From NCBI GenBank assembly GCA_903904885.1, contig CAIVED010000027.1:1-64000 (forward strand): a DNA stretch of 64,000 nucleotides, written 5' to 3'. Position numbers and translations under genes: made by a program. This document shows, one piece after another, positions 42,072-48,470 of the stretch. The first letter of the stretch is position 1; every line of letters begins with the position of its first letter. The notes under the pieces were generated by a model. That model was not told the DNA's origin, searched no databases, and worked only from the letters and a program-made list of their open reading frames with translations. This stretch comes from an uncultured archaeon. Lineage in GTDB: Archaea > Nanobdellota > Nanobdellia > Woesearchaeales > CAIVOO01.

Positions 42072-44231
42072 TTATTTTTTGCGTGAGGATTTTGAAAGTT
42101 TGACATCCCGCTTGGCGTCCTTGAGCATTTTTTTTATTGCAGCAATATGCGAAAGTGAATGCAAGTCAGTGCTTACTATATCCTTCAAGGTAGCTTCATT
42201 TTTCGCGTACCTTTCCAGTGTTTGCTTGAGACTTACTAAGAAATATTTGAATTGCTCTGCCTGAGTGGCATAGATTTTTCTCCGTCTAAATGACACGTCC
42301 TCAGATTCAGGCTCATCAGCAAATAAACCCGGCTGGCTGGTATTTGCCCCAAGACGGTCTATAAACGCGCTTATATCCTGCCTTATTTCACTTTGTGTTG
42401 TTTTGCCTCTGATAACCGCATCATATGCTATCTCCAGCTGTTCGTCAAAAGTAAGTTTCCTTCTCTCAACTCCTCCTCTTCCTTCAACCGGGACAGTTAA
42501 ATTTTCATTTGCAAACAGCATGGCCGCAGAATAGCTAAGAAGGCCTTCCCCGACTAAAGTTTTTACCTCTGGTGCAACCAGTTTAGCAAAACTTAAAACA
42601 TCCAGACCGGTCCTTCTGCTGATTTTGAGCATTTTAACAACATCATTCAGTCCTTCTGCTCCGGCAAGTTCATAAACTTCAATCAAAGCATTTCCCCTCT
42701 CTTCTGCAGTAAATGGTTCCTGGGTATTTTCATCATTCTGCAGCCAGGACCTTAATTCCCTGCTGAGATTTTGGATTTCGATTACCCGCACGGTATCCAC
42801 TCCTGCGTGCTTGCAGGCCTCATATCTTCTGTGACCACAAATAAGTTTGTATTCCTTTCGTCCTATTTTTTCTACCAGGAGCGCATTGAACAGTCCGGCC
42901 ATCTTAATAGATTCACCCAAAGATTCTACTTCATTATCCGCAACAGGGCCTCTTGGATTTTCAGGGTCAGGGGTAATGTATTCCAATTTCACAACTTTAA
43001 TTTTTCTGGTTGCTTTTCTTTGAACAGTCGGCCGATCTCTTGACTCAATTTCTCTCAGTTTTTTAGCAATGGTCACATGGCATATTGAACCACCATTGGC
43101 TGCAGTTCCATTAGTGAGCGCGTCCAGGTACTCTGTATGCTTCGCAACGGCAGTTTCAAGCATACTGAGGCTTTTTAGGCAGGAGTCTACTTTTTCCTCA
43201 AGCGAACCCTGCACATTTGCCTTGTAATCATCATCAATCCTGCTGAGTTTCCAGGTTCTGGAAATATAATCTCTTGCCATTCCCAGACTCTCCCTGACCT
43301 CGAGAATGTTTTGTTTTCTGCAGGCTGCTCTGCGCTCTGCCTGGCTTTGCCTGTTAATCTGCGCCAGGTCTGTTTCGTCTTCAACCTCAGGAATATTCTC
43401 CAAATCCCGCCTCCTTTTTTGCTGGGCAATTATGCGCTTTGCCATAGCGGATAATTCCTTTGGAACAGACGCCTGGCGTGAGGCCTTCAAAATATCCCTA
43501 TAAATTATTTCTTTAAATTTTTCAAAAGGGGTATTTGCATATTTCAGGGCAAGCTCATGCTGTTCTGTCTTGCCTGGAATCCAGGATAACAAAACTGCCC
43601 TTTCATAGCTCAGACCTTCCTCTGCAACTATTTTCTTTACTCTATATGCACAGTTATACACATATCTGTATGCGTCCCGGATAGCTCTTTCAGGCACACT
43701 GGCATATTTGCTGAATTCTTTTACAGTAAAAGGCGGCTTGCTCTGGTATTCTCTTGCCTTATTTTCATCGTTCATCAGTCTTACAATTTCCTCTGCCCTC
43801 CTGAAAGGAGGCGGAGCAACCTGGCTGTCCTCCTGGATTTGGATTATCCTCCTCTCAAGAATTGGCAAAGGTATTTTGGAATTCCTGACATCTATTTCTA
43901 TGTCTGCAAATCCTGCTTCCTTTGCTGCAAGAAGTCTTCTATGGCCATAAATCAGAAAAAGAATATCATCATCATCTGAAACACCTTTAAGAACAGTATT
44001 TTTATCCTCTTCCTTGACGTCATGCCTCCCGAGAATATATTCCCGGTATACCCTGCCTTTAACCCATTCAGCCAGGGGGTATGATATCTGCCCGTGACTC
44101 GCCATGGATTTAGAAAGCTGCGTTAATTTGTCCTCTTTAACCGTTTTTCTCGGCTGGCCAAGGTCAGGCTTAACAGTCTCTAAAGACGCGACAAATCTCG
44201 TTGAAGTTAAATCAATTCTGGCAACATCCAT
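42072..44231 (-). CDS. Tandem ParB-like domain protein
   Basis: 719 residues. Two ParB/Srx-like units: the first has LSKSMASHGQISYPL and IYGHRRLLAAKEAGF with RIIQIQEDSQVAPP, followed by an HTH-like VKEFSKYASVPERAIRD (residues about 20-190). The second has LGESIKMAGLFNALLV, ICGHRRYEACKHAGV and WLQNDENTQEPFTAEERGNAL then LKISRRTGLDVL (about 420-580). ParB uses GHRR for CTP binding in sliding clamps. A 200-residue helical link separates them. No ParA gene is adjacent, and no parS candidate was identified. Likely DNA-binding; role unknown. Confidence 0.8.
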   Translation of the reverse strand: MDVARIDLTSTRFVASLETVKPDLGQPRKTVKEDKLTQLSKSMASHGQISYPLAEWVKGRVYREYILGRHDVKEEDKNTVLKGVSDDDDILFLIYGHRRLLAAKEAGFADIEIDVRNSKIPLPILERRIIQIQEDSQVAPPPFRRAEEIVRLMNDENKAREYQSKPPFTVKEFSKYASVPERAIRDAYRYVYNCAYRVKKIVAEEGLSYERAVLLSWIPGKTEQHELALKYANTPFEKFKEIIYRDILKASRQASVPKELSAMAKRIIAQQKRRRDLENIPEVEDETDLAQINRQSQAERRAACRKQNILEVRESLGMARDYISRTWKLSRIDDDYKANVQGSLEEKVDSCLKSLSMLETAVAKHTEYLDALTNGTAANGGSICHVTIAKKLREIESRDRPTVQRKATRKIKVVKLEYITPDPENPRGPVADNEVESLGESIKMAGLFNALLVEKIGRKEYKLICGHRRYEACKHAGVDTVRVIEIQNLSRELRSWLQNDENTQEPFTAEERGNALIEVYELAGAEGLNDVVKMLKISRRTGLDVLSFAKLVAPEVKTLVGEGLLSYSAAMLFANENLTVPVEGRGGVERRKLTFDEQLEIAYDAVIRGKTTQSEIRQDISAFIDRLGANTSQPGLFADEPESEDVSFRRRKIYATQAEQFKYFLVSLKQTLERYAKNEATLKDIVSTDLHSLSHIAAIKKMLKDAKRDVKLSKSSRKK

Positions 44232-45550: not shown

Positions 45551-46627
45551 TTACCTTATGATTTCTATCCCAAGCTCCCTGCTTACCTGTACTTGCTTTG
45601 TGGACGGCTTGCTGTAGTCCTGCTTTCCAAGTATCCAAGGCGACTGGACTCCTGTTATGATTGTCATAACGGTTATCCTGCCCTTCATATCATCCTGGAC
45701 TCTTGCGCCCCAGATGACATTTGCGTCCTCATCCATTGTCTCGGTTACCAATTCGCCAATCCTGTTAATGTCGTCAAGCGTCATGTCAGGACCGCCGTTA
45801 ACCTGGATGATTGCACCTGTTGCTCCTGTGTATGTTATGTCAAGCAATGGGTTTGCCAATGCTCCTCTTACCGCCTCTTCTACCCGGTTAGTTGTGTCCG
45901 AGCTTCCTACTCCAATTGCCGCAACTCCTCCGTTGCTCATGATTGCCTTGACATCTGCGTAGTCAAGGTTAACCAATGATGGTATTGCAATTGTTTCGAC
46001 AATTCCTTTGATCATTGTTGAAATCAGTTCGTTTGCAACTGCGAATGCCTGGGTAACCGGAAGGTTACCTGCAATCTGGACAAGCCTGTTGTTGTCAATC
46101 ACAATTACTGTGTCTGACACCTGCCTAAGCTGCTGCAATCCGAATTCTGCCTTGTCAATTCTTGCCCTTTCAATCTTGAAAGGCATTGTGACTGTTCCTA
46201 TGACGATTGCGCCAACATCCTTTGAAAGCTGGGCAATTACAGGAGCTGCTCCTGTTCCTGTTCCGCCGCCCATACCGGCGCATACGAATACCATGTCAGC
46301 GTCCTTAAGTGTTTCCTTAAGCTGCTGAAGTGATTCCTTTGCTGCCTCGGATCCTTTTTCAGGGAATCCTCCGCATCCAAGACCCTTAGTTACATTTCTT
46401 CCCAAAAGAAACTTTCGGTCTGACTCTGTTATCTGCAAGTGCTGCTGGTCTGTGTTAACTGCGATGACCTCAGCTCCCTTGACACCTTTCTTGTAGAGCC
46501 AGTTAACCATGTTATTACCTGCTCCGCCAACGCCAATAACCTTAATATTAGCCTGGCCGATGTCAACTCCTTCGAATTGTGTTGTTTGTTCCTGCGCCCT
46601 TAAAGCGTTTTGCACCAAAAAGTCCAT
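45551..46627 (-). CDS. ftsZ: Cell division protein FtsZ
   Basis: 358 residues from ATG 46625-46627, preceded by the strong ribosome-binding site GGGGGAGG; an upstream in-frame ATG would place the start before the promoter. IGVGGAGNNMVNWL, the tubulin signature GGGTGTGAAP (about 121-130), the T7 loop NLDYADV (220-226) and the C-terminal domain GAIIQVNGGPDMTLDD (271-286) and VIWGARVQDD are intact, with a conserved end SRELGIEIIR. It forms the division ring. Its C-terminal domain is the template against which two truncated homologues at 18831 and 20834 were recognised. Flanked by structured elements on both sides. Confidence 0.97.
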   Translation of the reverse strand: MDFLVQNALRAQEQTTQFEGVDIGQANIKVIGVGGAGNNMVNWLYKKGVKGAEVIAVNTDQQHLQITESDRKFLLGRNVTKGLGCGGFPEKGSEAAKESLQQLKETLKDADMVFVCAGMGGGTGTGAAPVIAQLSKDVGAIVIGTVTMPFKIERARIDKAEFGLQQLRQVSDTVIVIDNNRLVQIAGNLPVTQAFAVANELISTMIKGIVETIAIPSLVNLDYADVKAIMSNGGVAAIGVGSSDTTNRVEEAVRGALANPLLDITYTGATGAIIQVNGGPDMTLDDINRIGELVTETMDEDANVIWGARVQDDMKGRITVMTIITGVQSPWILGKQDYSKPSTKQVQVSRELGIEIIR

Positions 46628-46705
46628 TTTAGTCCTCCCCCAGTTTTGCTCTCTTTTGGGAAATTGATTTTTTTGTTTTATCGGGATAGCGTGAACTAAC
46701 GAAAG

Positions 46706-46722
46706 CTTTATATAGTAGTTCA
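46706..46722 (-). promoter_or_regulatory. ftsZ promoter (near-symmetrical TATA box)
   Basis: CTATATAAAG on the reverse strand (46719-46710) predicts an ftsZ transcript start near 46687 and a leader of about 60 nt ending in the GGGGGAGG ribosome-binding site. Read on the plus strand the same bases are CTTTATATAG, also a valid box, which would start a plus-strand RNA near 46738, just before the three hairpins. Confidence 0.55.
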
Positions 46723-46748
46723 TACTATACTCTATTCCAGAAACAGTT

Positions 46749-46823
46749 ATTTCGTCGCCAAAACGAAATCGATTTGGTTTAAGTCGCCAAACTTAAACTC
46801 GTTGTGTTTCGCCAAAAACACAA
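46749..46823 (+). ncRNA. Three tandem hairpins with an identical TCGCCAAA loop
   Basis: Hairpin 1 (46749-46769): ATTTCG...CGAAAT. Hairpin 2 (46777-46798): GTTTAAG...CTTAAAC. Hairpin 3 (46802-46823): TTGTGTT...AACACAA. Stems are perfect and unrelated in sequence, but every loop is TCGCCAAA (with one extra A in the first). T-rich sequence ATTTTAATTTTTC follows directly, as for an archaeal terminator. A plus-strand TATA-like box (CTTTATATAG at about 46710) is correctly placed. It looks like a small RNA or multi-copy protein-binding element; strand is inferred from the terminator. Confidence 0.65.
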
Positions 46824-47000
46824 TTTTAATTTTTCTATATATTATATATCTTATATTTAAACACTTCTGTGAATGAATGTATATTTTGCAGTATACAGAT
46901 GTGTATACTGGGAGATGAAATACATTCTTTACTGGAGAGTGGTTTTAATAACAAATTCAATAGAGAAAGTTTTATTACTGAATGAAAACCTCTCAGAAAA

Positions 47001-47714
47001 ATGAAAAACAAGGAATTCTTTTATCTGCAGTATAATAAAATAAACTGGCAGAATCAGGAGAAGACGAAGATAAATGCTTTGGTGAATAATCATATCATTC
47101 AAAATATCATTCTAAAGAACAAGCGCCAAAGTATTAAGATATTTGACATTGGTTTCGGCATAGGTTTTTTTATGAAAATGCTATCTGAAGCTTTAACCCG
47201 ATCTTACAATGAGATTACTCTGGCAGGGTGTGAACCTTCCAAAAAGAATTACGATTATTTCATTGAGAGAAATTCGCTGAAAAAATTGGAAACATACAAC
47301 AAAACATTTCAGGAAATAAAAACCAGCAAAAAATTTGATTTCATTACCGCAATTTACGTGTTCCCTCATTTCACTTTGGAAGATTTGGATAGTATTGCAA
47401 AAAAAATCAATTCTATGCTTGAAACTGCGGGGAAATTTATTCTAGTCGTTGCCAATGAAAAATATCTAAAGGGAAAGCTAAGAGACAAAAGAGACCTGTT
47501 TATAGAAAAAAATACATTTCGGTGGAACGGGAAAGAATATTGGGAGGTCCTGCATTATTCGGATATACCTGAGATAGGCAAGGTCATAGACTATAATAGG
47601 GAAGAATCTTTTTATATTGACTTGTTTGAAAAGTATAATTTTAGGCTGGCAGAGAGAAAGAATTTAGACGACAAGGGTTTTATCTGCACAGTATTTGTAT
47701 TCGAGAAAAAATAA
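47001..47714 (+). CDS. Class I SAM-dependent methyltransferase
   Basis: 237 residues. Motif I is IKIFDIGFGIGFFMKML (about residues 45-61), motif II-like region LAGCEPSKKNYDYF gives the acidic ribose-binding residue, and FDFITAIYVFPHFTLEDL (motif IV/post-I) follows, then FILVVANEKYL. The remainder, with many aromatic residues, is a substrate domain. The gene is AT-rich compared with dphB, which follows after 6 nt and is probably co-transcribed. Substrate unknown. Confidence 0.8.
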   Translation: MKNKEFFYLQYNKINWQNQEKTKINALVNNHIIQNIILKNKRQSIKIFDIGFGIGFFMKMLSEALTRSYNEITLAGCEPSKKNYDYFIERNSLKKLETYNKTFQEIKTSKKFDFITAIYVFPHFTLEDLDSIAKKINSMLETAGKFILVVANEKYLKGKLRDKRDLFIEKNTFRWNGKEYWEVLHYSDIPEIGKVIDYNREESFYIDLFEKYNFRLAERKNLDDKGFICTVFVFEKK

Positions 47715-47720
47715 AAGAAA

Positions 47721-48470
47721 ATGCTATCCATAATCGGCATCGGACTGAACGACGAAAAGGACATAACCCTGAAAGGATTGGAGTTAATCAAGCAATCTGA
47801 TTTTGTCTACTTGGAAAGCTACACATCAATCCTGCAGTGCGATGTTTCTGCTCTTGAGAAATTATATGGAAAGAAAATTATTTTGGCAGACAGGACTCTT
47901 GTCGAGCAGAAAGCAGAGGAAACGATTCTCAAGAATGCAAAAACAAAAAATGTTTCATTTCTGGTTATCGGTGATGCGCTTTCTGCAACAACACACACTG
48001 ATTTGCTGAAGAGAGCAAAGGATTTGGGAATCAAAGTCAACATTGTCCATAACGCTTCCATTTTGACAGCTGTCGCTGAAACAGGCCTGCAGCTGTACAA
48101 ATTCGGCAAGACAACAAGCATGCCGTTTCCTGAGAAGAATTTCCAGCCGGAAACGGCCTATGAGGTAATTAAAGATAATTTATCATCAGGTCTGCACACT
48201 TTGGTGTTGCTAGATCTCCGCCCGCAGGAAAACAAGTTTATGACAGTAAACCAGGCAATTAATATCTTATTGGAGATACAGGAAAAAAGAAAGGAAAAAA
48301 CAATAACTAAAATTATTGGCTGCGCACGTCTTGGAAGTGAAAAACCAACAATCAAATTTGGCACAGCAAAAGAACTGAAAGACTTCAACTTCGGCAAGCC
48401 GCCCCACTGCTTAATAATCCCGGGAAAAATGCATTTTGCTGAAGAGGAATTTGTTGGGCAATTCAAATAA
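47721..48470 (+). CDS. dphB: Diphthine synthase
   Basis: 249 residues of the Dph5/DphB family: MLSIIGIGLNDEKDITLKGLE, DFVYLESYTS, VIGDALSATTHTDLL (the SAM-binding G-D-P/A-x-x-A-T-T-H), HNASILTAVAETGLQLYKFG and the C-terminal PPHCLIIPGKMHFAEEEF. It methylates the diphthamide intermediate on EF2 histidine. The pathway's first-step gene dph2 is seen only as a fragment at 25498 in this window. Confidence 0.95.
   Translation: MLSIIGIGLNDEKDITLKGLELIKQSDFVYLESYTSILQCDVSALEKLYGKKIILADRTLVEQKAEETILKNAKTKNVSFLVIGDALSATTHTDLLKRAKDLGIKVNIVHNASILTAVAETGLQLYKFGKTTSMPFPEKNFQPETAYEVIKDNLSSGLHTLVLLDLRPQENKFMTVNQAINILLEIQEKRKEKTITKIIGCARLGSEKPTIKFGTAKELKDFNFGKPPHCLIIPGKMHFAEEEFVGQFK

Follow-up and report, generated by a model that had tools for sequence, protein, structure and literature searches.

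An array of hairpins displaying one fixed loop beside ftsZ in Woesearchaeales, a candidate small RNA that may serve as a platform for an RNA-binding protein

The window (the whole stretch of DNA that was analysed, 64,000 nucleotides from an uncultured archaeon of the Woesearchaeales) carries ftsZ on its minus strand, and the region upstream of this gene contains three tandem hairpins together with putative transcription signals. The features of the locus are as follows:

45551 to 46627, minus strand: ftsZ (Pfam Tubulin/FtsZ and FtsZ_C), divergent from the putative small RNA
46700 to 46714, plus strand: BRE (CGAAAG) and TATA box (TTTATATA) of the putative small RNA, between ftsZ and the array and facing the hairpins
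46733 to 46748, plus strand: predicted transcript start, placed by its spacing from the TATA box, and leader CCAGAAACAG, with AGAA at 46739-46742
46749 to 46769, plus strand: hairpin 1, with a 7 bp stem and the 7-nt loop CGCCAAA (CGCCAA at 46756-46761)
46776 to 46799, plus strand: hairpin 2, with a 9 bp stem and the 6-nt loop CGCCAA at 46785-46790
46801 to 46824, plus strand: hairpin 3, with a 9 bp stem and the 6-nt loop CGCCAA at 46810-46815
46830 to 46834, plus strand: T-run in the window sequence, likely the 3' end of the putative small RNA
46854 to 46868, minus strand: convergent TATA/BRE (TTTAAATA, with AGAAGTG ahead), which would transcribe the array antisense towards ftsZ

The original prediction had placed three tandem hairpins beside ftsZ, and all three were found there on the plus strand, preceded by the symmetrical TATA box (46707-46714, palindromic in the window sequence) and followed by the T-run that it had also described. 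Its stem lengths of 6-7 bp had to be corrected to 7, 9, and 9 bp. The shared loop held in its common CGCCAA core, but the proposed 8-nt "TCGCCAAA loop" had counted the closing U-A pair, the true loops being 7, 6, and 6 nt long. Read as RNA, the plus strand of the array folded better than all of 200 dinucleotide shuffles (z = −3.0), and the minus strand was less unusual (z = −2.4; 5 of 200 shuffles were as good). The octamer TCGCCAAA taken alone was not enriched in the window (5 observed, 3.6 expected); what stands out is how its copies cluster in hairpins, not their frequency. Each strand of the window has one pair of hairpins with a common 6-nt loop within 90 nt, presumably the array itself in both cases. 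A chance origin was rejected, as two same-loop hairpins were found in none of 20 first-order Markov windows and in none of 3,000 random 120-mers of local composition. Near-identical repeats including the stems, as in CRISPR or tandem repeats, were not found either, the stems being unrelated within and between arrays.

When 40 relatives were searched at the DNA level, a similar locus appeared in another family of the order (L004), with a divergent ftsZ, the leader CAGAAACAG as in the window, and four hairpins that have unrelated stems and CGCCA(A) loops and are followed by T-runs. Across the order, the triple-CGCCAA pattern occurred in 58 of 352 genomes, against 6 for the reversed pattern (counted from the table). 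We inspected the 45 nonduplicate triple-motif loci among L045-L090 (the window's own is not among them) and removed by eye 16 that were coding or unrelated (L047-L049, L051-L054, L056, L058, L062, L068-L071, L088, and L090). The 29 retained loci, together with the window and L004, gave 31 arrays, and FtsZ was encoded directly to the left in 30 of them, the sole exception (L075) being cut by a contig end.

The association was also seen in a sample drawn blind to the array. From a named collection, in which most records bear the title Candidatus Woesearchaeota or Nanoarchaeota, the 80 loci with the closest FtsZ were taken, and 5 with less than 300 nt of upstream sequence were excluded. Of the remaining 75 loci, 54 carried at least two copies of CGCCAA and 55 carried at least one CGCCAA hairpin with a stem of at least 4 bp, both counts being 0 for the reversed motif. 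A scan of all 6-mers upstream of ftsZ ranked CGCCAA first by repetition, with 54 of 75 loci, and in a scan of all loops closed by stems of at least 6 bp it was the commonest six-nucleotide loop (83 of 162). The motif is one-sided, with 150 copies of CGCCAA and a single TTGGCG upstream of ftsZ in these loci. Its copy number per locus was 0 in 14 loci, 1 in 7, 2 in 28, 3 in 17, and 4 in 9. A stem of at least 5 bp surrounded 100 of 143 copies, compared with 83 of 3,240 random positions, and the remaining copies lay in weak or linear contexts. That the loop should recur in related species was one of the two checks on which the original prediction had been made to depend; the CGCCAA array is conserved, and on this count the claim stands.

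Some arrays depart from the usual motif. In L156 and L166, upstream of ftsZ, the leader is kept and the 5-6 copies of the motif read ACCAA; such a change in concert would fit coevolution with a partner. Single copies of UGCCAA, UACCAA, and CACCAA are scattered in otherwise normal arrays, and taken together the variants define a family motif of approximately YRCCAA with the core CCAA. No recognizable array was found in L092, L096-L101, L145, L146, L153, and others, and these losses are real. L125 and L163, also upstream of ftsZ, retain the leader TTTAGAAC and hairpins and have no CGCCAA; they are possibly decaying copies.

Outside the order but within the same class, the array was present in 9 of 37 ftsZ upstream regions, an uneven sample since the 37 genomes came from about 117 candidates and the second 20 were chosen for the most similar FtsZ. 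By family, these were 6 of 6 loci in f102, 1 of 2 in f107, and single loci of f111 and f120. With such a distribution, the array is either older than the order or has been passed on, and it has been lost many times. The right-hand neighbor varies: the 70 readable loci formed one group of 24, six smaller groups, and 19 singletons (BLAST groups of the longest frame, some of which may not be genes). The group of 24 resembles the window's gene of the tetrapyrrole-methylase family (47721-48470, Pfam). The array stays with ftsZ while the right-hand gene changes. A whole-genome search with a hairpin model (R1) gave matches in 57 of 118 genomes of the order at E ≤ 0.01, where absences mean little because only part of the candidates was scored and one hairpin of the window's own genome (L011, described below) was missed. 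Of 20 stretches around R1 matches, 15 lay beside ftsZ, one (L205) was at a contig end, and four (L199-L202) were not arrays, suggesting that a genome usually has a single array and has it at ftsZ.

The signals around the hairpins are conserved as well. The usual form of the leader is TTAGAA, and a BRE/TATA element about 25 nt ahead of the AGAA leader was found in 45 of the 54 arrays, where shuffled sequences gave 1.2 on average and 5 at most. A T-run stood behind the last hairpin in 41 of the 54, against 7 with an A-run in the same position. On the right-hand side of the array, 46 of the 54 have a minus-oriented TATA/BRE (2.9 on average and at most 8 after shuffling), and 11 have the plus-oriented form. 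This convergent element is found even in L004, whose right-hand gene is itself convergent and has no need of such a promoter. A transcript starting there would be the exact antisense of the array and could extend into ftsZ as a long leader; alternatively, the convergent promoter may be an off-switch for the small RNA. We considered whether the inverted flanks could be the terminal inverted repeats of a mobile element and rejected this, since they read as promoters instead. Separately, a hairpin that is long but imperfect (GAATGTAT ... ATACATTC, its inner part being AGTATAC/GTATACT) lies to the right of the array in the window (46864-46940); many relatives have AT-rich dyads in the same position, which probably serve the right-hand gene as promoter elements.

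The imperfections of the stems are informative about the strand. The non-Watson-Crick positions inside the stems of 126 distinct hairpins, drawn from 94 arrays, comprised 25 G-U, 5 A-C, and 25 others, a bias of G-U over A-C (P = 3e−4) where base composition predicts nearly equal numbers and the statistic ignores kinship. Since each plus-strand G-U pair corresponds to a mismatched A-C on the opposite strand, it is the plus-strand RNA whose fold is under selection. Changes on both sides of a pair were observed at 12 of 18 consensus pairs in an alignment of nine related arrays and at 3 of 40 pairs in a tighter alignment of eleven. In the pooled hairpin alignment, the covariation score was 1.09, against 0.21 after shuffling, a comparison that is partly circular because members had been selected for stems of at least 6 bp. 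Selection on a displayed single-stranded motif, as originally proposed, is supported by stems that vary and covary around a CGCCAA that is kept, most of its copies (the 100 of 143 given above) lying in stems of at least 5 bp.

The only fixed feature of the array is a loop shown several times, the stems merely holding it open, which gives it the look of a multivalent platform. We see roughly an even chance that the array encodes a small noncoding RNA that serves as such a platform, probably a sponge, for a sequence-specific RNA-binding protein. In the window, this RNA would be a plus-strand transcript of about 100 nt that points away from ftsZ; the estimated motif-bearing span in relatives is 81-170 nt. 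Its string of short hairpins would hold CGCCAA (approximately YRCCAA) open in loops, and sometimes in linear stretches, and a single sequence-specific RNA-binding protein would dock on the copies. The likeliest effect would be titration of this putative protein, as CsrB titrates CsrA, and the genes thereby controlled may concern growth or division. Two counts speak against this interpretation, namely, the 2-4 copies of the motif, a low number for a sponge, and the 14 of 75 ftsZ loci lacking any CGCCAA. The sponge or platform reading also leaves the conserved convergent promoter without explanation.

That promoter is central to a rival explanation in which array and ftsZ form a cis-antisense module: the convergent promoter would produce a long ftsZ leader containing the complement of the array, and a loop-loop contact between CGCCAA and UUGGCG would start the pairing and tune ftsZ. 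Such a module would account for promoters on both strands (the convergent one in 46 of 54 arrays) and for an array that adjoins ftsZ in nearly all loci read. Its antisense loops would start with UUGG, the complement of CCAA, matching the YUNR motif described for fast sense/antisense pairing in the excerpted text of PMC6562991. However, a cis pair needs no loop that is fixed between species, yet CGCCAA is fixed, and the two strands would be expected to fold equally well, whereas G-U outnumbers A-C by 25 to 5. With a fixed loop and a G-U bias of this kind, the module is unlikely to be the whole story. Identical single-stranded seeds repeated on one strand only are also what a trans-acting base-pairing RNA would show, its loops being directed at UUGGCG or UUGGYR sites of mRNAs or of other RNAs. 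We regard this as decidedly unlikely: the complement of CGCCAA is not Shine-Dalgarno-like, the pairing does not extend beyond the hexamer (the flanks are mostly U and A), and TTGGCG, which we read there as GVGG codons, occurs early in ftsZ in no more than 14 of 47 loci.

We give little credence to an element acting at the DNA level, either a repeated binding site, as the original prediction had offered in the alternative, or a cruciform serving the divergent promoters. The array does lie between promoters and its repeated motif is strand specific, but a duplex site needs no hairpins and a DNA site explains neither these nor the G-U bias; tolerance of G-U on one strand and the transcript-like order of promoter, leader, hairpins, and T-run suggest an RNA. 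Very little credence is left for pairing with 16S rRNA, perhaps during ribosome assembly, through the UUGGCG of a conserved segment (GGAAUUGGCGGGGG) that we take to be the archaeal 915 region. This hexamer is present in that segment in the 16S rRNA of 8 of 8 relatives, but 503 of all 4,096 hexamers, and 10 of 60 with the same composition, are equally conserved in 16S or 23S rRNA, which puts the match at a chance level of 12-17%. Moreover, UUUGGCG, the commonest extension, is missing from the 16S rRNA of all 8, and the ACCAA arrays break the match.

Two further occurrences of the hairpin in the window's genome were considered as possible targets. L011 (G000:C1:1400-1820, minus strand) has a single CGCCAA hairpin with the leader CAGAAACAG and T6, followed by a second strong hairpin with T7; both directly precede a PhoU/AbrB-like gene, named by sequence resemblance. 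The genome contains a second, partial copy of this PhoU-like protein (G000:C36:11112-11429; 88% identical over 106 aa). At L020/L172 (G000:C12, around 172458), an nrdR-like gene, presumably with a ribonucleotide-reductase-like gene behind it, has a CGCCAA hairpin in its leader, and this hairpin could be hidden by pairing with a downstream GGCGAAA. Conservation of these mRNA targets was rejected, since among 30 loci each for nrdR and the PhoU-like 5' UTR (two of the latter with less than 60 nt upstream) the hairpin occurred only in the window's own genome. For ftsZ, CGCCAA was absent from the 90 nt before the gene in all 47 loci, and pairing with its mRNA was rejected because TTGGCG falls within the first 150 nt of the coding sequence in only those 14, as an effect of the GVGG codons.

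Several known RNAs resemble the array in part. LhrC-type small RNAs display the same C-rich seed motif in several loops and pair with Shine-Dalgarno sequences, to which CGCCAA is not complementary. ColE1 RNA I is a plasmid antisense RNA with kissing loops. The TwoAYGGAY motif shares with the array a layout of tandem hairpins with one conserved hexaloop. It is, however, bacterial and has a different loop, and the array has no Rfam match: the search of positions 46000-48000 of the window at E up to 5 gave only hits far below the gathering scores, and ten loci carrying the array gave none. TwoAYGGAY itself is listed in a table of PMC2864571. Among antisense RNAs, hok/Sok and bsrG/SR4, the plasmid and toxin-antitoxin kissing-loop pairs treated in excerpts of PMC6562991, also combine several hairpins with promoters on both strands, whereas the loop of the array is fixed across species and G-U is tolerated on the plus strand only. 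The closest likeness is to bacterial CsrB/CsrC and RsmX/Y/Z: according to the excerpted text of PMC7652899, CsrB has repeated motifs in hairpin loops and other single-stranded stretches, and this repetition of one short motif is common to the group and to the array. Likewise, the array has one motif in the loops of sequence-unrelated stems in what is predicted to be a free-standing RNA. It differs in that its repeated loop is CGCCAA and not GGA, in its 2-4 copies instead of about 20, in its linkage to ftsZ with a convergent promoter behind, and in being archaeal, with CsrA (PF02599) detected in 0 of 40 genomes and in 3 of 14 control genomes. Of the CsrB-type sponge architecture originally proposed, the repeated-loop, free-standing plan with its own promoter and T-run is therefore retained, but the absence of CsrA from those 40 genomes and the lack of a conserved mRNA site are not in its favor.

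Among excerpts of the open-licence literature on Woesearchaeota noncoding RNA, the motif, ftsZ-linked archaeal small RNAs, and archaeal sponges, no such report was found. The RNA family appears to be new, with a working mode that resembles that of the bacterial sponge RNAs without membership among them. A fuller version of the platform reading is possible, and we hold it only tentatively: the arrays may constitute the first archaeal sponge or platform family, titrating a protein that binds YRCCAA loops from a position beside ftsZ in Woesearchaeales and neighboring orders, with the antisense promoter as an off-switch or as a coupling to ftsZ. If so, it would link RNA-level control and cell division. 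The candidate is a conserved noncoding RNA beside ftsZ in a large and mostly uncultured archaeal order, and its CGCCAA hairpin offers a short, sequence-defined bait for an archaeal loop-binding regulatory protein, making the question of sponge-type RNAs in archaea directly testable.

Close to ftsZ, the window also encodes on the minus strand (42072-44231) a protein of 719 aa whose second half contains a ParB N-terminal domain and whose first half reads like another ParB-type domain.
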